Assembly: GCA_027483045.1 (NCBI GenBank)
Contig: JAIXVL010000103.1
Coordinates: 1-46,961 of the forward strand
DNA: 46,961 nt
Direction of reading: 5' to 3'
DNA from: Lysobacteraceae bacterium
GTDB lineage: Bacteria > Pseudomonadota > Gammaproteobacteria > Xanthomonadales > Xanthomonadaceae
The position numbers were made by a program, and so were the translations under genes. A model generated the notes under the pieces. That model worked only from the letters and a program-made list of their open reading frames with translations. It was not told the origin of the DNA and searched no databases. Numbering within the stretch: position 1 is the first letter of the stretch; each line of letters opens with the position of its first letter. This document shows, one piece after another, positions 14,411 to 26,662 of the stretch.

Positions 14411-15673
14411 ATGCCCGAACCTTCCAACGGCCGCTTCTGGCTGCCGAGCCCGCCCAGTAATCCCGAGCTTGTCGCCTTCCTCGAAATGATCGAGGAAGCT
14501 GTGCTCTTGGTCGATCCTGAGCGCGACATTCACTATGCGAACCCAGCGGCCGGCGAACTCGCGCACCGCTTCGCCACCGATCCGGACGACCCCGACAACC
14601 CCATGCCCTTGTTGGCCTTGGTGCCCGACGAGGTGTTCAGCCTCGCTGCGGACGAGCGTTGGGCCGGCGAAGCGCGCGATGCGGATACGGCCCTTGTGCT
14701 GGCCGTGCGCCGCTACCCTTGGATCATCGACGGCGTCGCGGGCCATTTGCTGCTGCTCCGCGATGTCACCGAATCACGCCATCGCCAAGACGAACTGCGC
14801 CGCCGCCACACTGAATTGCAGCAAACCTATGCCCGCCTAGCGGGCGCGCAAGAGCAGCTTCTGCAGTCGGAAAAAATGGCCTCGATTGGTCAGCTCGCGG
14901 CCGGCATTGCGCACGAAATCAACAACCCGATCGGCTACGTGCACTCCAACCTGGTGAGCCTGCGCGACTACACCAGCGGATTGCTCGAGCTCATCGGTGC
15001 GTATGAGCACGCCCTCGCGCCGAAGCTCGACGAAGCAACGCTTGCCACCATCGCTGGAGTGCGTGCGCGCATCGATTTCGATTTTGTATCGACCGATTTG
15101 CCCGAGCTCATCAATGAGTCACGCGAAGGCTTAGAGCGCGTTCGGCGAATCGTGCAGGATCTGAAGGATTTCTCGCATGCCGGCCGCGACGCCGGATGGC
15201 GCCGCGTGGACATTCACAAGGGTTTGGAATCCACGCTCAACATCGTCTGGAATGATCTCAAGTACCGAGCGCGCGTGGAGCGCCATTTGAGTGCGCTGCC
15301 GCTCGTGGAATGCCACCCCAGCGAGATCAATCAGGTCTTTATGAATCTGCTGCTCAACGCCAGTCATGCCATCGGCGAGCGCGGCACCATCGTGCTGGCC
15401 AGCGGCCACGATGAAGCGCAAGACGAGGTTTGGATCAGCATTCGCGACTCAGGGCCAGGCATCGCTGCAGAAGTCTTGCCGCGAATCTTCGACCCGTTTT
15501 TCACTACCAAACCAGTGGGCACTGGCACGGGTTTGGGCCTCTCCATCAGCTACGGCATCGTCAAGAAACACGGCGGCCGTATTGATGTGTCGAACGGCGC
15601 GGAAGGCGGTGCTGTGTTTACCGTGGTGTTGCCGGTGCACCAGCCCGTGCGCGTGGGTAGCGACAACACCTGA
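14411..15673 (+). CDS. Soluble PAS-domain sensor histidine kinase
   Basis: A 420-residue cytoplasmic histidine kinase with no membrane segment. A PAS-like domain (about 20-120, with EAVLLVDPERDIHYANPAAG) is followed by a short coiled coil (121-155) and the dimerisation domain with the H-box AAGIAHEINNPIGYVHSNL, phospho-acceptor His168. The ATPase domain shows the N box (NQVFMNLLLNASHAIGERG), G1 (RDSGPGIAAE), F box and G2 (GTGTGLGLSISYGI). It follows flgN after 40 bases and converges with the response regulator gene at 15684, 10 bases away. No partner can be proved. The neighbouring REC protein is the simplest candidate. Its input signal is not visible. Confidence 0.9.
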   Translation: MPEPSNGRFWLPSPPSNPELVAFLEMIEEAVLLVDPERDIHYANPAAGELAHRFATDPDDPDNPMPLLALVPDEVFSLAADERWAGEARDADTALVLAVRRYPWIIDGVAGHLLLLRDVTESRHRQDELRRRHTELQQTYARLAGAQEQLLQSEKMASIGQLAAGIAHEINNPIGYVHSNLVSLRDYTSGLLELIGAYEHALAPKLDEATLATIAGVRARIDFDFVSTDLPELINESREGLERVRRIVQDLKDFSHAGRDAGWRRVDIHKGLESTLNIVWNDLKYRARVERHLSALPLVECHPSEINQVFMNLLLNASHAIGERGTIVLASGHDEAQDEVWISIRDSGPGIAAEVLPRIFDPFFTTKPVGTGTGLGLSISYGIVKKHGGRIDVSNGAEGGAVFTVVLPVHQPVRVGSDNT

Positions 15674-15683
15674 GGAACGCGGT

Positions 15684-17369
15684 TCACCCCGACAAACTTT
15701 CCCAGGTTCGGAATGCCTCGCGAATGTGCTGGCGCAGGTCTTCCTCGTCCCAAGGCTTGGTCAAGAAGCGATAGATCGCACCGCGGTTGATCGCATCGGT
15801 CACGGTCGCCAAGTCGGTGTAGCCCGAAAGGATCAGACGCACCGTGCGTGGGTACAACTCCTTCACGCGACCCAGAAACTCGGTGCCTGACACATCGTTC
15901 ATGCGCTGGTCCGACACGATGACCTGCACGTCATTGCTGGCCAGCAATTCGAAGGCCTCGGAAACCCGGCTTGCGGTCAGCACGCGATAGCCATCGCGGC
16001 GGAAAACACGCTGCAACGCACGCAGCACGTTCTCTTCGTCATCCACCAGCAGCAGGGTGCGCGACGCAGCGCCCTGCACAAACAACTCGGGCCGCAGGTA
16101 ACGCTGCCGCAGCAGCGGCTCTACCTCCAGCAAAGGCTTGGGCCCGGAGAACAGAAAGCCCTGCAATTGATCGCAATCGGCTCGACGCAAATAGCCCACT
16201 TGCGCTTCGGTTTCGACACCTTCGGCCATGACCTTCAAGTGCATCTGCCGGCCCATGGCGATGATGGCTCGCGCAATCGCCGCTTGTCCTTGGTCTTGTG
16301 CCACTTCGCTAACGAAATCGCGGTCGATCTTGATCTTCGACAGCGGATAGCGCGGCAAGTGCACCAAGCCGGCGCCACCCATGCCGAAGTCGTCCAGAGT
16401 GAGGCCCACGCCGTAACTCCGAAGACGGCGAAGGTGCTCGCGGATGCGCTCCAGATCGCGCAAGAGCGTGCTTTCGGAAAGCTCGATCTCGAACTGGTCG
16501 AAGGCCACATCGGCGCTGGCCAAGCGGTTCTCCAAACGCTCGATCAGGTCGCCCTGAATCAATTGCACCGTGGAGACGTTCACCGCCACGCGCAGGTCGT
16601 CGAAGCCCGCCCGGCGCCAACGCCGCGCATCGGCCACCACGCGATCCAGCACCCAGGCACTGATGCCGGACATGAGGCCCAACTGCTCGGCACGCGGCAA
16701 AAACTGCGGCGGCACGAGAAGCACGCCGTCCGAGCTTCGCCAACGCAGCAGGGCTTCCACACCTGCAATGCGCCCATCTGCAGCATCGACGAAAGGTTGG
16801 TAGTGCAGCTCTAGCTCATCGCGCTCGAGTGCGGCGGCAAGCGATCGTGAAAAACTCGGCAGGTGCCAACCCGCGCCGGGCAGAAGCGCATGACGGCGGC
16901 ACTGGCCCAAGCCCGAGCGCCGCGCCTCCTGCAAAGCCATATCCGCGGCACTGAGCAAGGCGCCCGCAGTGCCACCATCATCGGGATACAAGGCCACACC
17001 CATGCTGCTGGTGAGCTGCAGTGTGTGCGGCGGCACGGCCAGCGGCTCGGCCAGCTCGCGCAGCAAGCGCGACGCGTATGCCTCGGGTGCGCTGACGGCT
17101 TCCGTTTCGGTCGTGACGAGCAACAAGCACGCGCCGCGTTGTCGCCACAGACGCCCTTCCGGATGGGTCAAAGCACGCAAGCGGCTGGCGAAAAGCGCCA
17201 CAGCTTGGCCAGCGACGTCTTCGCCCACGGCATCCACAACGCCCTCAAACTGATCGAGCGCCACGTGCACCAGCAAGAAGGGCGTCGCGCCCGAGATCAA
17301 GCCCTGAAGCGTGGCTTCTTCGGCGCCCAGCCAAGGCAATCCGCTGATGGGGTCAGTGGCTGATGCCAC
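15684..17369 (-). CDS. Response regulator with GGDEF(degenerate)-EAL-REC order, probable c-di-GMP phosphodiesterase
   Basis: The 561-residue product has a GGDEF-like domain first (about 10-160). It lacks the GGDEF signature (LWRQRGACLLLV stands where it should be), so it should not make c-di-GMP. Next comes an EAL domain (about 175-425) that keeps the catalytic signature: GVEALLRWR, NVSTVQL, ELSES, TLDDFGMG, KIDRDFV, AEGVET and QLQGFLFS, so phosphodiesterase activity is likely. A REC domain sits at the C-terminus (about 435-555) with LLVDDEENV, Asp in VSDQRM, and FLTKPW, close to RpfG-type receivers. REC at the C-terminus is uncommon. The GTG at 17369 is chosen because TGAGG precedes it and it lies 4 bases after the upstream stop; GTG 17432 would overlap that gene. 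Confidence 0.88.
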   Translation of the reverse strand: MASATDPISGLPWLGAEEATLQGLISGATPFLLVHVALDQFEGVVDAVGEDVAGQAVALFASRLRALTHPEGRLWRQRGACLLLVTTETEAVSAPEAYASRLLRELAEPLAVPPHTLQLTSSMGVALYPDDGGTAGALLSAADMALQEARRSGLGQCRRHALLPGAGWHLPSFSRSLAAALERDELELHYQPFVDAADGRIAGVEALLRWRSSDGVLLVPPQFLPRAEQLGLMSGISAWVLDRVVADARRWRRAGFDDLRVAVNVSTVQLIQGDLIERLENRLASADVAFDQFEIELSESTLLRDLERIREHLRRLRSYGVGLTLDDFGMGGAGLVHLPRYPLSKIKIDRDFVSEVAQDQGQAAIARAIIAMGRQMHLKVMAEGVETEAQVGYLRRADCDQLQGFLFSGPKPLLEVEPLLRQRYLRPELFVQGAASRTLLLVDDEENVLRALQRVFRRDGYRVLTASRVSEAFELLASNDVQVIVSDQRMNDVSGTEFLGRVKELYPRTVRLILSGYTDLATVTDAINRGAIYRFLTKPWDEEDLRQHIREAFRTWESLSG

Positions 17370-17373
17370 GGCC

Positions 17374-18510
17374 TCAGGACTCAAGCGCGGCAAGCTCGTC
17401 GGCAAGCGCCTGCCAACTCTCGCGCTGGTCACTTAAGCCCAGCGACTCGACCCAAGCTTCGTCCAGCGGCAAATCACTCGCGTGTGCCCACGCGATGTGA
17501 CACGCGCCCACGACGTCCAAACCCTGCTCGCCGGCAAGGGCGGGCGTGGGATGCAAGGCGGCGGCTTCGACCAATGCGCTGGGCAAGCCCCACAAACTCA
17601 GCAGGTACGCGCCCGCTTCCGCATAGGTCGGCCAAAGCGCTTGTTCGGCGCTGGGCTCCAGCCAAGGAAGACGCACATCGGGCAGCATTTGGCCTACACC
17701 CGCCAACAATGCGGCCGTGGCGGCAAGGTCAGCGCGTGGGCCCGGCAACAGGCGCGCTGCAAAGCGCGAGGCCACCAGACTTTGCCGACGCAATTGCTCA
17801 CGTTCCGGCGCCTCAGGCCGCGAGCGGCCCGCACCGAAGATTTCTCCGGCCATGACCAAACGGCGCAACGTGAGATTGCCTAGCCACACCACCGCGGTGT
17901 GAATGTCATCGATGCGCCGCCCGCCGCTGTACATCGCCGAATTGCATAAGCGCAGTACTTTGGCAGCCAGTACGGGGTCGCTCTCCACCAATCCAGCGAC
18001 TTCGCGCGCCGAGACTTCGAGGTCTTCGGTGCGACGCATCAGTTCCAGCGACAACGCAGGCGGCGGCGGCAAACGCCCGATGCGCCCAATCGCTTCGGCC
18101 AACAAGGGGCTTTCCAAGCGCTTGCGCAAGGCCAACACCGCGCGCAAAGAAACCAAAAGCGCCTGGGCGTCGACCGGGTTGTAGAGCAAGCGATGCAGGT
18201 TTTCGAGTGCGGCCAAGCCCGGCGCATCGCGGCCATCGTCGAGCAGCAAGCAACGAATCAGCTTGGGCTGCTCGCGCTTCAACGTACCCAACAAGGCATT
18301 GCCCGAACCATGCGCAAGGCGCGGCTGCACGATGACCGCATCGAACTCCTGCACCGCCACGCGCTCTAGGGCCGTAGCGGCCGTGTCGACCACCGCCATC
18401 GTGGCCGACACACCCAGAGCAGCACTCAGCTCATCGGCCAAGGACGCATCGATGCCGGCGAACAACAGCCGCAACGGGGCTTCAACGGTGGTCGAATCAG
18501 GTGCGCTCAC
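17374..18510 (-). CDS. HDOD-domain signalling protein with receiver-like N-terminus
   Basis: A 378-residue protein. Residues about 8-115 resemble a receiver fold (LRLLFAGIDASLADELSAAL; AVQEFDAVIVQPRLAHGSGN) but the phospho-acceptor region reads VIVQPR, so an Asp is missing and phosphorylation is unlikely. The HDOD domain follows (about 135-340): GRLPPPPALSLELMRRTED, LVESDPVLAAKVLRLCNSAM, YSGGRRIDDIHTAVVWLG. HDOD proteins lack HD metal ligands and act as protein-binding signalling modules. The GTG at 18510 has GAGG 8 bases upstream and is preferred over the far upstream open frame. It precedes the EAL-REC gene by 4 bases and is divergent from a paralogue at 18683. Confidence 0.85.
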   Translation of the reverse strand: MSAPDSTTVEAPLRLLFAGIDASLADELSAALGVSATMAVVDTAATALERVAVQEFDAVIVQPRLAHGSGNALLGTLKREQPKLIRCLLLDDGRDAPGLAALENLHRLLYNPVDAQALLVSLRAVLALRKRLESPLLAEAIGRIGRLPPPPALSLELMRRTEDLEVSAREVAGLVESDPVLAAKVLRLCNSAMYSGGRRIDDIHTAVVWLGNLTLRRLVMAGEIFGAGRSRPEAPEREQLRRQSLVASRFAARLLPGPRADLAATAALLAGVGQMLPDVRLPWLEPSAEQALWPTYAEAGAYLLSLWGLPSALVEAAALHPTPALAGEQGLDVVGACHIAWAHASDLPLDEAWVESLGLSDQRESWQALADELAALES

Positions 18511-18682
18511 ACAGGCCTCGATTGAGCTTTTCGGCACTGTAACAGAGGGCTTGCAAAACGCTGGATGTGCATAAGTGTGATGCAGTGCGCATGAGATCAC
18601 GCACAAGCTGTGACGCTTGGCAGTGATTGGCGGTTAACGCGGATTAGCATGTGTCAACGGCTGCAAAAGTGTTTTCTTGACG
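18511..18682. promoter_or_regulatory. Divergent intergenic region between the two HDOD genes
   Basis: These 172 bases must hold promoters for both HDOD genes, but I cannot assign a convincing sigma-70, sigma-28 or sigma-54 element. The middle (about 18570-18605) has a loose inverted arrangement, TGTGA and TCACG separated by 16 bases, which does not match a CRP/Clp site (6-base spacer). Confidence 0.4.
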
Positions 18683-19774
18683 ATGCGTGTTCTGTTCGCC
18701 ACCTCCGATCCCAACCAACCCGGCGCTGTCGGAGACGCGTTATTGGCGCGAGGCTATGAATGGCAGGTGCTTGCCTATTCGCGCCCTGAGGAAGCCCGTG
18801 AGGTCCTCGCCGATCTGGCCGCCGATGCGGTGGTCGTGGATCTGGCCTTGGACAACGCCGAGGCCCTGCTGCGGCACATGCTGCACACCGCACCGGGCAC
18901 CGCGCGAATGGTGCTGTGCCCCAACGAAACACACGATGTTGCGCTGCGTCTGCTCGCCTTGACCCACGGCATTTTGTCGGCCAAGGACAGCATTGAAGAC
19001 ACTGCCGAGGCGCTGATTGCTTATGCCCGCCTGGCCAAAGGTCTGGACCGCCCCGAGTTGCGCGCCGCCGTCGGCGCCCTGACTCGCCTTCCCGGCGTGC
19101 CCAAGCTCTACATGGCCATCAATCGCGCGCTCGATAACCCCGATGTCGATATCAGCAGCGTGACGCAGATGATCATGGCCGACCCGGTGGTCAGCGGGCG
19201 GGTGCTGCAGCTGGCCAATTCGGCACTCTTCAGCGGTGGACGCCAAGTGAGCAGCATCGCGTTCGCCGTCACACGGCTGGGGCTAAAGACCACGCGCAGT
19301 TTGGTGCTGGCTTCCGAGCTGTACGCCTTGGGTGGTGCCGAGGCCGCACGGGCCGATCGTGTGCGCCAGCAATGCCTGCTGGCGTCTTGGCTTGCGCCGC
19401 GCCTGATGGCCGACCATGTCGACCCCGAAATCGCCAGCACTGCGGCATTGCTCGCCGGTATTGGCCAAATGCTGCCGGAGCTCCTGCTCGACGAGGCCCA
19501 GCCGCTGCCCGATGTGCCGCCCATTGAGGACGAAGCCGCGGCCTATCTTCTGGGTCTGTGGCAGCTGCCCAGCGTGTTGCAGGAGGCCGTGGCTTGGCAG
19601 CGCACTCCGCGCCTATCGGGGGCACGCTTTGGAGTCGTGGGGGCCGTTCACGTCGCCACCGCCTTGGCTTTCGACCGTCCGGTCGACGAGGCCTGGCTGG
19701 AACGCTGCGGCGTGGCCGTTCACCTGCCGGGCTGGCGCGATTTGGCCGACCGAATGGAGCGCAGCGCAGCGTGA
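18683..19774 (+). CDS. HDOD-domain signalling protein, paralogue of the divergent neighbour
   Basis: A 363-residue protein with the same layout as the gene at 17374: a receiver-like N-terminal part (about 1-115; MRVLFATSDPNQPGAVGDAL, DAVVVDLALDNAEALLRHML) and an HDOD domain (about 125-330). Shared blocks are LPGVPKLYMAINRALDN, IMADPVVSGRVLQLANSALF, SGGRQVSSIAFAVTRLG, LLAGIGQMLP and LWQLPS. Here the receiver part keeps an Asp (VVVDLALDN) at the possible acceptor position, unlike the neighbour. The ATG at 18683 is used; a TTG at 18677 is an alternative. No strong ribosome site is visible. The pair probably arose by duplication and may work together. Confidence 0.85.
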   Translation: MRVLFATSDPNQPGAVGDALLARGYEWQVLAYSRPEEAREVLADLAADAVVVDLALDNAEALLRHMLHTAPGTARMVLCPNETHDVALRLLALTHGILSAKDSIEDTAEALIAYARLAKGLDRPELRAAVGALTRLPGVPKLYMAINRALDNPDVDISSVTQMIMADPVVSGRVLQLANSALFSGGRQVSSIAFAVTRLGLKTTRSLVLASELYALGGAEAARADRVRQQCLLASWLAPRLMADHVDPEIASTAALLAGIGQMLPELLLDEAQPLPDVPPIEDEAAAYLLGLWQLPSVLQEAVAWQRTPRLSGARFGVVGAVHVATALAFDRPVDEAWLERCGVAVHLPGWRDLADRMERSAA

Positions 19775-19870: not shown

Positions 19871-22114
19871 ATGAGTCTGAAGCGGCAGGCGGAAACAGAG
19901 GACAGTTTGGTGTTCGCCAGCGAGGAGGGCGAAGACCTCTCGACCGATGCTGCCTGCTGGACGGTGCTCGTCGTCGATGACGAACCCGATGTGTATGCCG
20001 CGACTTGCTTGGCGCTGCGCGGGGTAGAAGTTCTCGGACGGCCGTTGCGTTTCTTGCATGCCGAATCCGGCGAGGAAGCCTTCGCACTGCTCAGCCATGC
20101 GCCCGATGTGGCCGTGATTCTGCTCGACGTGGTGATGGAATCCGAAAGTGCGGGCCTCGACTTGGTCGCGCGTATTCGCGGCGAGTTGGGCATGCACAAG
20201 CCACGCATCATTTTGCGCACCGGCCAACCCGGTTATGCGCCTGAGATGCAGGCGATCCGCGATTACGACATCAACGATTACCGCATCAAGAGCGAACTCA
20301 CGCGTACACGCCTGTACACCGTGCTGACAGCAGCTCTGCGCAGCTACCAAACACTCGAAGCGGTCGAGACCAATCGCGCTGATCTCGAGTACCTGCTGAA
20401 TGCTCAGAACGAACTGCTCGCCGCCAACACCATGCCGGCGTTCGCGCTCGGCGTGTTGGAGCGTCTGGCCGGGTTGTTTGGCATGCCGGTGAACGCCGTG
20501 TTTTGCAGTGATGCGCGGCGCTTCCACGATGTCGATGAGAATCGCCGTCGTGTCGTGGCGGCCTTGGGTCGCTATGTGGATTGGTCGTGGCGCCGACTGG
20601 ATTCCTTGGGCGATGGGCCTGAAGTCGAGGCCATCGAGTTGGCCTTCGCCACGCGCCGCACGGTGTTCGCCAACTGCGGCATTGCGGCGTTCTTGCCTTC
20701 GCGAACAGGCTCAGAGGCGGTCGCTTTTGTTGCCGGACAAGCCGACAGTGACGTGCATGACCCGCGCGTGTTCGACATGTTTGTGCAGAACACCACTGTC
20801 GCGGCCGATGGCGTGCGCTTGGTGGAGCGCTTGCGCGATGCCGCCTATGTGGATGGCCTGACCCGTTTGCCGAATCGCTCGGCTCTCGCCGAGACCATCG
20901 ACACCGTGCTGCGGGCGTTGCCCGAAGCGCCGCAGCGTTTGCTGCTGATCGACATCGATCAGTTTTCTGAGATCAACGAAACCTTCGGCGACCGCATAGG
21001 CGACGCATTGTTGCGCGGCGTGGCACAGCGCTTGGAAACGCAGGCCGGAAGCATCGTTCGCGTGGCGCGTGTGGCCAACGACACCTTCGCCGCATTCGGC
21101 CCGCGCGATGCGCTGGTGCCGGGCGAGTGGGCCAAGAGCTTGGATGAACCCTTCGATGTCGAAGGGCTGGAGATTGGTCTCTCAGTGTCGTTTGGTGGCG
21201 TCGAGATTCGTGGCGACTGCGTGAGCGGCGGGGAAGCCATCAAGATGGGTTACTCGGCGCTCAAGCGCGCTAAGCAAACCGGACATCGCTCGGTCGCCTT
21301 CTACTCGCACGAGGTGGCTACCGAAATCAAAGAGCGCACACGCCTGCTGCACGGGCTGCGGTCGGCCTTCGATCAGCAACGCCTGTTCCTGATGTATCAG
21401 CCGCAGGTGGATGCGCGCACAGGCCGCACATTGGGGCTTGAAGCGCTGATGCGCTGGCGCTCCGACGATGGTCGCTTGGTGCCGCCGGATCGCTTCATTC
21501 CGATTGCCGAGCAGTCGGGGCTGATCAAGGACTTGGGCGCATGGGCCATGCGCACCGCCATCCATCGCGCGGCAAGTTTGCGGGCCGCCGGCCAGAGCCT
21601 GCGCATGGCGGTGAATGTCTCGATGAGCCAACTCTTGGTGCCGGAGTTCGAAGTCATGGTGGCCGAGGCCTTGGCCGAAGGTGGCCTGCCCGCGGAATTG
21701 CTTGAAATCGAAATCACCGAGTCGGTCGCCATGCAGTCGCCTGACATCGTTTTGCCCAAGTTGGCTGCGCTAAAGGCTTTGGGCGTGTGTGTCGCCATCG
21801 ACGATTTCGGCACCGGCTATTCCTCGCTGTCGTCGCTCGAAAAGCTTTCGCCTGATCGCCTGAAGATCGACCGCAGTTTTGTCATGGGCTTGGATGCCGA
21901 ACAGAACACCGGCGGCATCGCCGAAATGATCATCGATCTGGGCCGGACCTTGGGCCTAAGCGTGATTGCAGAAGGCGTCGAAACCGCGACCCAACGACAG
22001 AAGCTCGTCGATTTGGGCTGCCATGAGTTGCAGGGCTATCTGTTCTCGCCGCCCTTGGCCTTGGAGAGTCTGCCGGATTGGCTGGAGCGCCATGGCGAGG
22101 GCTTCCCTCTATGA
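19871..22114 (+). CDS. REC-DUF3369-GGDEF(degenerate)-EAL response regulator, probable c-di-GMP phosphodiesterase
   Basis: A 747-residue cytoplasmic protein, first of a four-gene overlapping operon. The REC domain (about 32-165) has VLVVDDEPDV, phospho-acceptor Asp86 in ILLDVVM, ILRTGQPG and a conserved Lys in YRIKSEL. A DUF3369 region follows (about 175-320). The GGDEF domain (about 325-480) has AYVDGLTRLPNRSAL and LLLIDIDQFSEIN but reads RVANDTFAAFG where GGDEF should be, so it is probably catalytically dead. The EAL domain (about 490-740) is intact: GLEALMRWR, NVSMSQL, LEIEITES, AIDDFGTGYSSL, KIDRSFV, AEGVET, LQGYLFSPP. ATG 19871 has GGGGGAA upstream. Probable output: phosphorylation-controlled c-di-GMP breakdown, perhaps driven by the kinase at the end of the operon. 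Confidence 0.92.
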   Translation: MSLKRQAETEDSLVFASEEGEDLSTDAACWTVLVVDDEPDVYAATCLALRGVEVLGRPLRFLHAESGEEAFALLSHAPDVAVILLDVVMESESAGLDLVARIRGELGMHKPRIILRTGQPGYAPEMQAIRDYDINDYRIKSELTRTRLYTVLTAALRSYQTLEAVETNRADLEYLLNAQNELLAANTMPAFALGVLERLAGLFGMPVNAVFCSDARRFHDVDENRRRVVAALGRYVDWSWRRLDSLGDGPEVEAIELAFATRRTVFANCGIAAFLPSRTGSEAVAFVAGQADSDVHDPRVFDMFVQNTTVAADGVRLVERLRDAAYVDGLTRLPNRSALAETIDTVLRALPEAPQRLLLIDIDQFSEINETFGDRIGDALLRGVAQRLETQAGSIVRVARVANDTFAAFGPRDALVPGEWAKSLDEPFDVEGLEIGLSVSFGGVEIRGDCVSGGEAIKMGYSALKRAKQTGHRSVAFYSHEVATEIKERTRLLHGLRSAFDQQRLFLMYQPQVDARTGRTLGLEALMRWRSDDGRLVPPDRFIPIAEQSGLIKDLGAWAMRTAIHRAASLRAAGQSLRMAVNVSMSQLLVPEFEVMVAEALAEGGLPAELLEIEITESVAMQSPDIVLPKLAALKALGVCVAIDDFGTGYSSLSSLEKLSPDRLKIDRSFVMGLDAEQNTGGIAEMIIDLGRTLGLSVIAEGVETATQRQKLVDLGCHELQGYLFSPPLALESLPDWLERHGEGFPL

Positions 22115-24102
22115 GCAAGGCGGCCGTACTCGGCGGTGCCCTTTTTCTGGCCAGTGCCGCGGCAGAGGCGCAACCGAGTGCCGAAGAACTGCTCGATCTC
22201 GATATCGCGCAGTTGCTCGAGTTGCCGGTATCGGTGGCCAGTCGCAGCCAACAACGCAGTGGCGACGCCGCCGCCGCGGTCTACGTGATCGATGCCGCAA
22301 CCTTGCGCCGCTCAGGCATTCAGCGTTTGCCCGATGCCTTGCGCTTGGTGCCCGGTTTTCATGTGGGCAAGTGGGATGCCAATAAGTGGGCCATCTCGAG
22401 CCGCAACAGCATGAGTCGCTTCACCAGCACCATGTTGGTGTTGATTGACGGGCGACCCGCTTACACACCGCTGTTTGGCGGCGTGCGCTGGGAAATCATG
22501 GATTTGCCCATCGATGAGATTGAGCGCATTGAAGTCGTGCGTGGCCCGGGGGGTCCGCTCTGGGGCGCGAATGCGGTGGACGGCATCGTCTCGATTGTCA
22601 CGCGGCACAGCAGCGCCACCTTGGGCGAGCACGCGCTTCTCGCACTTGGAGACGGTGATGTAGAGCGCGTGGGCGAAGCCCGCATCGGCCGAGCCGCCGG
22701 CGATTGGACCTGGCGCTTGAGTACGCGTTGGGTGGATTCAGCACCCGGCCTTCTGCCTGAACCCTCGCGGAGCACGTGGACCGCGCCGCGTGCCGTGGGG
22801 GAAGAGGCGCACGACGAAGGCCTGTTTCGCTCTGCCATGCTGCGCGTGGATAGCGCTAAGGACCGCGACGGTGGCAAGTGGAGCGTGTGGCTAGGCCATC
22901 GCGAAAGCAGCTTCACCGACCAGCGCCTAGTGGGCGGGCAGCCGCGCGACAACCGCAATCAAATCAAGTTGGATTACGCCTCGGCCGAATGGCGAACTCA
23001 GCCTAAAGAGGGGCAAAACCTCGCATTGCGCGGATCCGTGCATCAACTCGTGGTGGGCGATAGCGTTCTTTGGGACGACCAACGCGTGGTGGATGTCGAC
23101 TTTCAGCATGATGGTGTGAGCGGTCGTCACACATGGGCTTGGGGTCTGGGTCTTAACCATTATCGAAGCGACACGCGAACTCCGCCCCGCTTTGCGACTC
23201 CACCGTGCACGGGATGTTTCGGGGCGAACCCACAGGTGGGCACAGATACGAAGCGCAGCTTCTTTGCCCAGAGCCAGACCGCCCTGAACGCGCAATGGTC
23301 GGTGATTCTTGGCGCAAAGCTTGAGGACTCACGCAGCATGCAGTGGGAATGGCAGCCCACGGCGCGCTTGCGCTGGCAGCCCACCGAGCAGCAAACCTTC
23401 TGGAGCAGTTGGACGCGCGCCTTGCGTTCGTCGACGCGACTTGAGCGCGACGGTGCCTTCTTCAATGTGCCCGCCAATCTGGTCACGGCATTCCGTTGCC
23501 GAACCTACGCTGCGGGTGTGTGTGGCATTGGCAATCCAGAGCAAGAACCTTGGGTGGTCGACGTCGCCGAACTGGGCTGGCGCAACCAGATCACGCCGAG
23601 CATTGCGTTCGATGTTGCGGCGTTCCGAAGCGACTATTCCAACCTAGCGGGGCTACCGGGCGACCGCATTCGCGAGCGCGTGCAGGGCGTTGAGGTCGTG
23701 GCGCAATGGGCGCCGAACGCGCAGTGGGCCGTTAACGCCTCGGCTACACGGCATCAAGGGCGCGATCGCTTCATCGGCTCGGCGTTAACTGCAGACAGCA
23801 TCTTCCTGCCGGAGCTCAATGGTCAGCTGCATGTGCAGTGGTCGCCTCACGCGGATGTGGATGTGGATGTGCGCTGGTGGAAAGAAGGAGCGCGAAACAC
23901 TGCTTCAACGCGCATCGGTCTTCTGCCCGCTTACCACCGCGTCGATTTGCGCTTGGCTTGGCGCCCTGCAAACGCTTGGGAAGCCGCGCTTGCGATTGGC
24001 AATGCCAACGATGATCGGCCGACTGAGTATTTGGAGGGCTTGCGCGTCAATACCGCTGTGCCTCGCAGCGTGACCCTCTCGCTTTCGCGGTCGCTGCCAT
24101 GA
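22111..24102 (+). CDS. TonB-dependent receptor-like outer-membrane protein
   Basis: A 663-residue outer-membrane protein. A signal peptide (about 1-21, VLGGALFLASAAAEAQP) is followed by a plug domain (about 40-165) with SVASRSQQRSGDAAAAVYVI, LPDALRLVPGFHV, MLVLIDGRPAY, the conserved IERIEVVRGPGGPLWGANAV (in part) and DGIVSIVTR. A beta-barrel makes up the rest. No clear TonB box is visible, and the last residues (LSLSRSLP) lack the usual terminal aromatic residue. The ATG overlaps the stop of the phosphodiesterase gene (ATGA), and its own stop overlaps the YfiR gene the same way. Ligand unknown. Such receptors next to YfiR proteins may act as sensors rather than importers; this is inference. 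Confidence 0.9.
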   Translation: MSKAAVLGGALFLASAAAEAQPSAEELLDLDIAQLLELPVSVASRSQQRSGDAAAAVYVIDAATLRRSGIQRLPDALRLVPGFHVGKWDANKWAISSRNSMSRFTSTMLVLIDGRPAYTPLFGGVRWEIMDLPIDEIERIEVVRGPGGPLWGANAVDGIVSIVTRHSSATLGEHALLALGDGDVERVGEARIGRAAGDWTWRLSTRWVDSAPGLLPEPSRSTWTAPRAVGEEAHDEGLFRSAMLRVDSAKDRDGGKWSVWLGHRESSFTDQRLVGGQPRDNRNQIKLDYASAEWRTQPKEGQNLALRGSVHQLVVGDSVLWDDQRVVDVDFQHDGVSGRHTWAWGLGLNHYRSDTRTPPRFATPPCTGCFGANPQVGTDTKRSFFAQSQTALNAQWSVILGAKLEDSRSMQWEWQPTARLRWQPTEQQTFWSSWTRALRSSTRLERDGAFFNVPANLVTAFRCRTYAAGVCGIGNPEQEPWVVDVAELGWRNQITPSIAFDVAAFRSDYSNLAGLPGDRIRERVQGVEVVAQWAPNAQWAVNASATRHQGRDRFIGSALTADSIFLPELNGQLHVQWSPHADVDVDVRWWKEGARNTASTRIGLLPAYHRVDLRLAWRPANAWEAALAIGNANDDRPTEYLEGLRVNTAVPRSVTLSLSRSLP

Positions 24103-24686
24103 GCCTACCGACGAAGCCTTGGACGATGACGCGCTTGCGCAGTTGGCTTGCCATGCTGGTGATCGTCCAGTGCGTGGCGGCATCACCTGCAAACGCGGCA
24201 GGCGCTGCCACCGACGAGTTCGCACTCAAGGCAGCGTTTCTCTACAACTTCACGCGTTTTGTTGAATGGCCGGAGAGCGCCTTTGCGTCGGCGCAAGACC
24301 CATTCCGGATGTGCGTGACTGGCGAAGATCCGTTTGGAAATCGACTGGTGGCTCTGCGCCAGCGCCGCGTTGGCGACCGCGCGATTCGAGTGGAGTACCC
24401 CACCACGGTCGATGCTTTGGGTCGTTGCCAGATGATCTACATCGGCGATGCCACGCCAGCCGATTTGCGTGCTGCTGCTCTGCGGCGCGATCCGACCAGC
24501 ATGCTGACCGTTTCGAGTGACAGCAGCTTCGCGCGGCAAGGCGGCATGGTGGCGCTGGTCACCGAAGCTGGGCGCGTTCGTCTGCACATCAACTTGGTCG
24601 CTGTACGCAGCTCGCCCCTGCGCTTCAGCGCAAAGCTGCTCGAGATTGCCCAAGTGCGTCATGGCGATGCGGGGCCGCAACTGTGA
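24099..24686 (+). CDS. YfiR-family (DUF4154) periplasmic signalling protein
   Basis: A 195-residue secreted protein. The signal peptide (about 11-34, LRSWLAMLVIVQCVAASPAN) is followed by the YfiR signature DEFALKAAFLYNFTRFVEWP at 39-58, a Cys at 72 (FRMCVTGEDPFG), a Cys at 110 (LGRCQMIYIG), and the C-terminal block RQGGMVALVTEAGRVRLHIN followed by SAKLLEIAQV. In Pseudomonas aeruginosa YfiR holds the cyclase YfiN in check through its periplasmic domain and is redox-controlled by Cys. The first Cys pair seems kept here, while I see no second pair. Start ATG overlaps the receptor stop; the stop overlaps the kinase start, so this product and the kinase are coupled in translation. Confidence 0.92.
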   Translation: MSLPTKPWTMTRLRSWLAMLVIVQCVAASPANAAGAATDEFALKAAFLYNFTRFVEWPESAFASAQDPFRMCVTGEDPFGNRLVALRQRRVGDRAIRVEYPTTVDALGRCQMIYIGDATPADLRAAALRRDPTSMLTVSSDSSFARQGGMVALVTEAGRVRLHINLVAVRSSPLRFSAKLLEIAQVRHGDAGPQL

Positions 24687-26662
24687 AGCAATGGTTGCGT
24701 GCGCGCTCCATCCGATCGCGCCTGATGCTGGTGATTGGCACGGTGGTGTTTTTTGCGATTAGCACCTTTGGTGGCCTGGCTTTGGTTTCGGAGCAGCGTG
24801 CCGCGCGAGAAACATTGTCGGCCGAGCAAGGCGCCTTGGCCGCTCTGGTGGCCAACCGCAGCGGTGCCGCTTTGGTGTTCGGCGATCAGGCCTTGGCGCA
24901 AGAAAACCTTGATGCTCTAGGCGCGGTGCCCCATGTGCAGAGCGCCTGTTTGTACGACAGCGCCCAACAGTTGTTTGCTGGGTTCTCTGCTGAACGAGCA
25001 AGCACGAAATGCCCCGAGCTGCATGGTCAGGACGCTGCACTGCTGAACGGTGACTCGCTCACCGTCGAAGTGCCTGTCGTGCTCGACGATACCGTCGGCA
25101 CGCTTGTTCTTATGAGCAGCTTGCAGCCCCTGCGCGAACGACTGGGCGAGCAGGCGCGCACGTGGGCAATTACCGGCACCATCGGCGGCGCCTTGGCCCT
25201 GCTGTTAGCGGCATTGCTTGAGCGACTGATCTCTGGCCCGATTCGCCGCGTGAATGCAGTGGCCGAGTCGGTCAGCCGAGGTGGCGATACGGGCCTGCGA
25301 GCGCCGGTCGAAAGCCGGGATGAAGTTGGAAAGCTCGCCGATGCCTTCAACCGCATGCTCGACCGCTTAGACGAGCAAACCCAACGTCTGAAGCTGCAGG
25401 CGGAGTACAACGAGGTCCTGTTCCAACGCTCGCCCTTGCCTGTGCTAGTGATTGATCCAGCGCTCGGACATTGCGTCGATTGCAACGATGCCGCCGTCAC
25501 CATCTATGGCTTCAGCACGCGGGAAGAAACCCTAGCAACCAGTGCGGCCGATGTTTCTACCGAGCTGCAATACGACGGTACGCCCTCGGCCGAAGCCATC
25601 GTGCCGCGCGTGCAAGCCGCACTTGCTGGTGTGCCGCAGGTATACGACTGGCGCCATCGCCGCCTGGACGGAAGCGAGTTTGACGCCGAGGTTCATCTCG
25701 CGCGCTTCGGCCCCGACGAAGCCCCTCTGCTTCTGACGAGTCTGTTCGATGTCACCGAACGCAAACAGACGGCAGCGCAACTGACGCGGTTGAACGAGGC
25801 GCTCGAAACCCGTGTTGAGGAGCGCACGCAGCAACTGGCCAATTCGAATCGCGAGCTTTCCGACACCATTAGTCGTTTGCAATTGGCACAAGGCGAATTG
25901 GTGCGCAGCGAGCGATTGGCGTCTTTGGGCTCGCTGGTGGCCGGCGTGGCGCACGAGTTGAACACACCTCTGGGCAGCGTGCTCTTGGTGGCCACGACGC
26001 TTGGCGATGGTTTGGAAGACTTGCGCCGACAGCTAGAAAGCGGCGAGCTGAAGCGCTCCGCATTGCAGAGCTTTCTTGCTCAGCAGTCCGAGGCGCAGGC
26101 CCTTATCGTGCGCAATGCGCGCCGTGCCGCCGAGTTGATCGGGCGCTTTAAGCAAGTGGCCGTCGATCAAACCTCGGAGCAACGTCGTCGCTTCGACTTG
26201 GGCGAAGTCGTGAACGAAGTGCTTGGCACCTTGCAGCCACGCATTCGCAAGACACCGCACCAAGTGATTGTGGAAGTGCCCGACGGCCTGCAGATGGACA
26301 GTTATCCCGGCCCACTGGGGCAAGTCATCACCAATCTGGTGTTGAACGCCATCATTCACGGCCTGCAGGACGATGCGGGTGTGGTGCGAGTTATCGCGCG
26401 CGCCGTGGGCGACACCGACATTGAGCTGCAGGTTTGCGACAACGGCGTGGGCATTCCTGCCGAGAATCTGCCGCGCATTTTCGATCCCTTCTTCACCACC
26501 AAATTGGGCGAGGGCGGCAGCGGCTTGGGCCTGCACATTGTTTACAGCTTGGTGCAACGCAGCTTGGGCGGGCAAATCGGCGTGGACAGCAAGGTGGGGC
26601 AAGGCGCGCAGTTCTTTGTGCGTTTGCCGCGCTCGGCGCCGCAGGCGGAACAGGCGGAGTGA
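24683..26662 (+). CDS. Membrane histidine kinase with YfiN-like sensor (CHASE8-HAMP-PAS-HisKA-HATPase)
   Basis: A 659-residue kinase. TM1 at about 14-35; a periplasmic domain (36-160) with ALAALVANRSGAALVFGDQA and an AL..VPHVQSACLYD pattern, like the CHASE8 domain of YfiN; TM2 at about 162-183; HAMP (184-236); PAS (245-360, LFDVTERKQ at its end); coiled coil (361-405); HisKA with H-box GVAHELNTPLGSV, His424; and HATPase (about 540-655) with NLVLNAIIHGL, CDNGVGIPAENL, FDPFFTTK, GSGLGLHIVYS. The start is GTG at 24683, overlapping the YfiR stop (GTGA). YfiN itself ends in GGDEF; here the output is a kinase. Its likely input is the adjacent YfiR protein and its likely target the REC domain of the first gene (inference). 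Confidence 0.92.
   Translation: MKQWLRARSIRSRLMLVIGTVVFFAISTFGGLALVSEQRAARETLSAEQGALAALVANRSGAALVFGDQALAQENLDALGAVPHVQSACLYDSAQQLFAGFSAERASTKCPELHGQDAALLNGDSLTVEVPVVLDDTVGTLVLMSSLQPLRERLGEQARTWAITGTIGGALALLLAALLERLISGPIRRVNAVAESVSRGGDTGLRAPVESRDEVGKLADAFNRMLDRLDEQTQRLKLQAEYNEVLFQRSPLPVLVIDPALGHCVDCNDAAVTIYGFSTREETLATSAADVSTELQYDGTPSAEAIVPRVQAALAGVPQVYDWRHRRLDGSEFDAEVHLARFGPDEAPLLLTSLFDVTERKQTAAQLTRLNEALETRVEERTQQLANSNRELSDTISRLQLAQGELVRSERLASLGSLVAGVAHELNTPLGSVLLVATTLGDGLEDLRRQLESGELKRSALQSFLAQQSEAQALIVRNARRAAELIGRFKQVAVDQTSEQRRRFDLGEVVNEVLGTLQPRIRKTPHQVIVEVPDGLQMDSYPGPLGQVITNLVLNAIIHGLQDDAGVVRVIARAVGDTDIELQVCDNGVGIPAENLPRIFDPFFTTKLGEGGSGLGLHIVYSLVQRSLGGQIGVDSKVGQGAQFFVRLPRSAPQAEQAE

Follow-up and report, generated by a model that had tools for sequence, protein, structure and literature searches.

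A YfiR-linked sensor kinase operon with a candidate REC-phosphodiesterase output in a Silanimonas-type genome

We analyzed a 46,961-nt stretch of DNA (the window; contig JAIXVL010000103.1 of assembly GCA_027483045.1) from a member of the Lysobacteraceae with a Silanimonas-type genome, in a genus that includes Silanimonas sp. LE19-41.2B. From position 19871 to position 26662 we found four consecutive forward-strand reading frames, all open, at the coordinates and in the order given by an earlier note that was made from the letters alone:

19871 to 22114, forward strand: gene 1, response regulator REC-DUF3369-GGDEF-EAL with a degenerate GGDEF (ANDTF), predicted c-di-GMP phosphodiesterase (domain search, residue check, first gene in 8/8 genus genomes)
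22111 to 22114, forward strand: overlap of gene 1 and gene 2, ATGA
22111 to 24102, forward strand: gene 2, TonB-dependent receptor, plug and barrel (domain search, NCBIfam NF053590)
24099 to 24102, forward strand: overlap of gene 2 and gene 3, ATGA
24099 to 24686, forward strand: gene 3, YfiR/DUF4154 periplasmic protein (domain search, NF053591, predicted fold)
24683 to 24686, forward strand: overlap of gene 3 and gene 4, GTGA
24683 to 26662, forward strand: gene 4, CHASE8-HAMP-PAS-HisKA-HATPase_c sensor histidine kinase with a GTG start (domain search, residues, motif, model)

Every junction is a 4-nt overlap, exactly where the earlier note had placed them. The same note held that the four proteins are made in step, which is an overstatement; 4-nt overlaps are frequent in bacterial operons, and here they suggest translational coupling and no more. 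Its list of proteins stands for the receptor, the YfiR protein and the CHASE8-HAMP kinase; however, its description of gene 1 as REC-EAL was too simple, as the protein also carries DUF3369 and a degenerate GGDEF domain, and the kinase has an additional cytoplasmic PAS domain.

In gene 1, Pfam models identified the domains Response_reg, DUF3369, GGDEF and EAL. The REC match scores 29.3, slightly below the gathering score of 30.2; nonetheless, the key residues are there, with Asp36/Asp37, Thr117 and Lys140 all in place, and Asp86 is the correct phospho-acceptor, as had been proposed. The GGDEF signature is replaced by ANDTF, which makes cyclase activity of gene 1 unlikely, and all six EAL motifs that we examined are intact (EALMR, AVNVS, EITES, DDFGTG, KIDRSF and AEGVE). 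These residues predict that gene 1 is a c-di-GMP phosphodiesterase and not a cyclase. A paralogue of gene 1 in the same genome (contig C156, L144:1121-6138) has the same REC-DUF3369-GGDEF-EAL architecture and overlaps a dCache-HAMP-PAS kinase gene by 4 nt, and DUF3369 receivers adjoin kinases in further genomes too (L145, L147). In one locus of the genus (L083, genome G276), gene 1 is interrupted by a frame break, which may reflect assembly error or decay.

Gene 3 matches DUF4154 (YfiR/HmsC-like, PF13689) with 138 bits and passes the cut-off of the YfiR-like model NF053591 (128.5 bits against 125). When we predicted its fold from 19 sequences, the best PDB matches were all YfiR, with TM scores of 0.69-0.78 on target length. 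Cys72 and Cys110 align with Cys71 and Cys110 of Pseudomonas aeruginosa YfiR, and positions 160, 162 and 183 are hydrophobic (V, L and I) as in YfiR; the second disulphide of that protein (C145-C152) is absent, positions 145 and 152 both being Ala. Gene 4 comprises CHASE8, HAMP, PAS, HisKA and HATPase_c domains and is homologous to the NF053592 family, which it matches below threshold (153.3 against a cut-off of 194). Its predicted sensor is a PAS/Cache-like domain flanked by two long helices, and residues 62-66 read AALVF (AA[LV][LVI]F across the genus), the counterpart of the AAVVF motif at which YfiR was proposed to bind YfiN (Malone et al., PMC3375315). The kinase retains the active-site His424 and the ATP-binding N and G boxes, so that an active-site histidine kinase adjoins a REC domain with a full phospho-acceptor set.

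Gene 2 has a Plug domain and a TonB_dep_Rec barrel, and it is a homologue of the TOL_0244 receptor family that scores below threshold (NF053590, 340.6 bits against a cut-off of 645). Our domain search found no N-terminal STN signalling domain of the FecA-type transducing kind. Conservation of the gene order in relatives, on which the earlier note had staked its proposal, is complete for part of the operon: the REC-phosphodiesterase, yfiR and kinase genes are adjacent in 8/8 available genomes of the genus, where each of the 19 junctions between genes is an overlap of 1 or 4 nt, whereas the full order including the receptor is kept in only three of the eight (the window genome, G275 and G277). 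In the five receptor-less genomes, we found no close copy of the receptor anywhere in the genome. An OmpA-type or YfiB protein as a substitute outer-membrane partner was considered and rejected, as no OmpA-type gene lies beside the operon in the seven genus genomes checked. The absence of the receptor from five of eight genomes indicates that the core works without it or through an unlinked input. Thus, the phosphodiesterase, YfiR and kinase form the invariant unit of this genus, with the receptor as an optional input.

The surroundings of the operon contain further genes:

14411 to 15673, forward strand: histidine kinase gene converging on the GGDEF-EAL-REC gene
15684 to 17432, reverse strand: degenerate GGDEF (RGACL)-EAL-REC protein with a C-terminal receiver, 2.4 kb upstream of the operon
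17374 to 18606, reverse strand: HDOD protein, diverging from the HDOD gene that follows
18677 to 19774, forward strand: HDOD protein, whose end lies about 96 nt from the start of gene 1, a position conserved in 5/7 other genus loci

Because this conserved forward-strand HDOD gene ends so close to gene 1, gene 1 may not head the transcription unit. A scan for sigma-70 promoters gave no hits and is uninformative in this GC-rich organism. The earlier note had called gene 1 the only REC protein, which is correct within the operon, where it is the sole receiver and from which it is never parted in the genus; nearby, however, the GGDEF-EAL-REC protein is a second candidate acceptor. Its presence near the operon in five of the seven other genus loci, together with the lack of a REC gene next to the kinase at several loci outside the genus, would fit a kinase whose main partner is another regulator (this one, or an unlinked one) and a gene 1 that is controlled otherwise. 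In contrast, the GGDEF-EAL-REC gene has its own converging kinase gene, and at L083 and L086, where gene 1 is present, we did not find it next to the operon. The overlap of gene 1 with the operon recurs in all eight genomes, and gene-1-like proteins adjoin kinases elsewhere. We therefore regard a different main partner as improbable.

To follow the arrangement outside the genus, we gathered loci by similarity to YfiR or to the kinase sensor and not by c-di-GMP genes, and compared 39 loci in which YfiR lies beside a CHASE8 kinase with 40 control histidine kinases (nine genomes, same searches). The co-occurrence that the earlier note had asked to be searched for was borne out for the receptor, YfiR and CHASE8 kinase: this trio recurs across several phyla, and 32/39 YfiR-linked CHASE8 kinases have a TonB receptor gene on their own strand within 4 kb, as compared to 2/40 controls (Fisher p=5e-13). 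In 14/39 loci, a REC-containing GGDEF/EAL enzyme adjoins or is fused to the kinase, as compared to 4/40 controls (p=0.008), and in 10/32 after related loci were dropped (p=0.035). The association with REC-GGDEF/EAL enzymes outside the genus is thus modest; 25 of the 39 loci have no REC-c-di-GMP enzyme next to the kinase, and most outside systems have single-domain receivers, hybrid kinases or no adjoining receiver.

Several of these loci differ in how the output is attached. Two Steroidobacter loci (L075 and L081) have a receptor, YfiR, a kinase and a plain REC-EAL protein, L075 in the window's gene order; an apparent YfiR-kinase fusion at L075 was rejected, as it consists of two genes bridged by a run of N. 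In L095, L097 (domains by Pfam) and L102 (domains by home-made HMMs), a single chain carries CHASE8-kinase-REC-REC-HPt-REC-GGDEF-EAL, with a TonB receptor and/or YfiR upstream. An additional locus from another family (L143), which we examined in full because DUF3369 adjoins its YfiR, reads receptor-YfiR-kinase-REC/DUF3369-REC/kinase. At further loci, YfiR lies directly beside a CHASE8-GGDEF-EAL protein, and on the YfiR tree this direct output corresponds to four changes, at least two of them forced by strong branches. Within one supported YfiR clade, the GGDEF-EAL of L106, which is reached through a kinase and REC, is 55-58% identical to those of L109, L111 and L116, which are fused to CHASE8, so the same switch and type of enzyme are connected in two ways, with or without a phosphorelay between them. 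Separately, a 1789-aa CHASE8 kinase beside YfiR (L108:3640-9006) has three REC and four HPt domains together with a class III adenylate/guanylate cyclase domain, which implies that cAMP or cGMP may be a further output of the YfiR switch.

A simple account of the operon would be that it groups separately acting envelope and c-di-GMP genes with no signalling chain. Overlapping genes are frequent in compact operons, and the receptor can be lost, as such a grouping would allow. However, the conservation in 8/8 genomes, the fused relays, the comparison with control kinases and the retained YfiR-binding motif all speak against it, and we consider it very improbable. The earlier note had instead proposed a relay from an envelope signal through YfiR, the kinase and a phosphorylated REC domain to c-di-GMP. 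All context comparisons fit this proposal (the synteny, the Steroidobacter sets, the comparison with controls, the fusions and the paralogue pair), except that the receptor is not obligatory. Taken together, synteny, co-occurrence, fusions and the AALVF motif mean that the relay is well supported by context, and we hold it to be somewhat probable that receptor, YfiR, kinase and REC-phosphodiesterase would form such a chain, a YfiR-controlled two-component system with c-di-GMP breakdown as its output.

We infer every binding and transfer step, the role of the receptor and the sign of the output from sequence, synteny and predicted structure. In the periplasm, YfiR would bind the CHASE8 domain of the kinase through the AALVF helix and lock it in a single state, in the way that it acts on YfiN. 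The receptor, where present, would supply the input from the outer membrane: its state, ligand-bound or transporting, would set the amount of free YfiR available to the kinase, in a role like that of YfiB. Release of YfiR would allow autophosphorylation at His424; the phosphate would then pass to Asp86 in gene 1 and alter the phosphodiesterase activity of the EAL domain. Phosphorylation activates many REC-EAL enzymes, and EAL is the only intact catalytic domain here; on these grounds, phosphorylation of gene 1 would be expected to activate EAL and lower c-di-GMP, a sign opposite to that of YfiN; that release of YfiR lowers c-di-GMP is a guess.

We tentatively suggest that the TonB receptor may replace YfiB as the outer-membrane gate of a widespread YfiR module, so that nutrient or siderophore capture would be sensed by YfiR and passed on by phosphorylation to the phosphodiesterase, with a sign opposite to YfiN. 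A less likely alternative to the full chain is that YfiR and the kinase drive the REC-phosphodiesterase while the receptor is an uptake protein with co-regulated expression or cargo only, and YfiR itself senses the envelope or redox state. The latter is consistent with the loss of the receptor in five of eight genus genomes in which the other three genes stay, with the lack of an STN domain in our search, and with the retained Cys72/Cys110, which match the YfiR cysteine pair. In contrast, no other neighbour is as constant outside the genus as the receptor, and at one locus (L104:7228-14028, receptor-YfiR-receptor-YfiR-kinase-REC) two receptor-YfiR pairs lie ahead of a single kinase, a duplication that suggests the pair as the input unit. 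The receptor, YfiR and CHASE8 distances are correlated as well (after thinning, Mantel r is 0.34-0.52 with p at or below 0.003, species descent being uncontrolled).

Kinases beside EAL/GGDEF response regulators are known from Legionella (Lpl0330-Lpl0329) and Xanthomonas (RavS-RavR), and this pairing is shared with the operon described here; to our knowledge, YfiR, CHASE8 and TonB receptors are not involved in either system. The closest relatives on the sensing side are YfiBNR (TpbB) of Pseudomonas aeruginosa and DgcN/YfiR of E. coli, in which a periplasmic protein of the YfiR family is likewise found next to an inner-membrane CHASE8-HAMP receptor. The operon resembles YfiBNR in having AALVF for AAVVF, a c-di-GMP output and an outer-membrane partner. 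In contrast to YfiBNR, where a GGDEF cyclase is on the same chain as the sensor, we find a PAS-HisKA-HATPase_c kinase and a separate REC-phosphodiesterase; the neighbour is a TonB receptor instead of the Pal-like YfiB; and the c-di-GMP sign is predicted to be possibly opposite. The three linked NCBIfam models (NF053590 for the TOL_0244 receptor, NF053591 for the TOL_0243 YfiR-like protein and NF053592 for the 'YfiR-like protein-associated' kinase) cover the same three neighbouring genes, although in the window only YfiR lies above its cut-off and the REC-phosphodiesterase is outside the trio.

Divergent Yfi systems in which the GGDEF domain of YfiN is swapped for GGDEF-EAL, HPt or sensor histidine kinases were reported in silico from distant bacteria, and the YfiR-YfiN sensor was termed a modular core; YfiB is usually missing from such systems (Malone et al., 2012, PMC3375315). 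The main text of that paper makes no mention of TonB, and its passages on these systems describe neither a receptor gene nor a REC-phosphodiesterase as dedicated partner, unlike the operon here. In the open-access literature, we found no paper that pairs a TonB receptor with YfiR or that describes a REC-phosphodiesterase as partner of a YfiR-kinase. The suggestion that no system of this layout had been described thus holds for TonB input combined with a dedicated REC-phosphodiesterase output, for which we found no account; it does not hold for the kinase output on YfiN-type sensors, already reported in silico in the 2012 paper, nor for the trio, which NCBIfam models. Novelty is limited to that combination.

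YfiR is known as a cyclase switch. In the loci compared here, the same switch and sensor are linked, depending on the lineage, either directly with a cyclase/phosphodiesterase, with a phosphorelay on a single chain, or with a kinase and a REC-phosphodiesterase that are separate proteins, and a TonB receptor is the usual outer-membrane neighbour. Direct stimulus-to-kinase demonstrations for REC-type c-di-GMP enzymes have been described as rare (PMC8846402). If the relay is real, it would offer a testable case of an outer-membrane event that is read by YfiR, and of kinase inputs that feed REC-type c-di-GMP enzymes.
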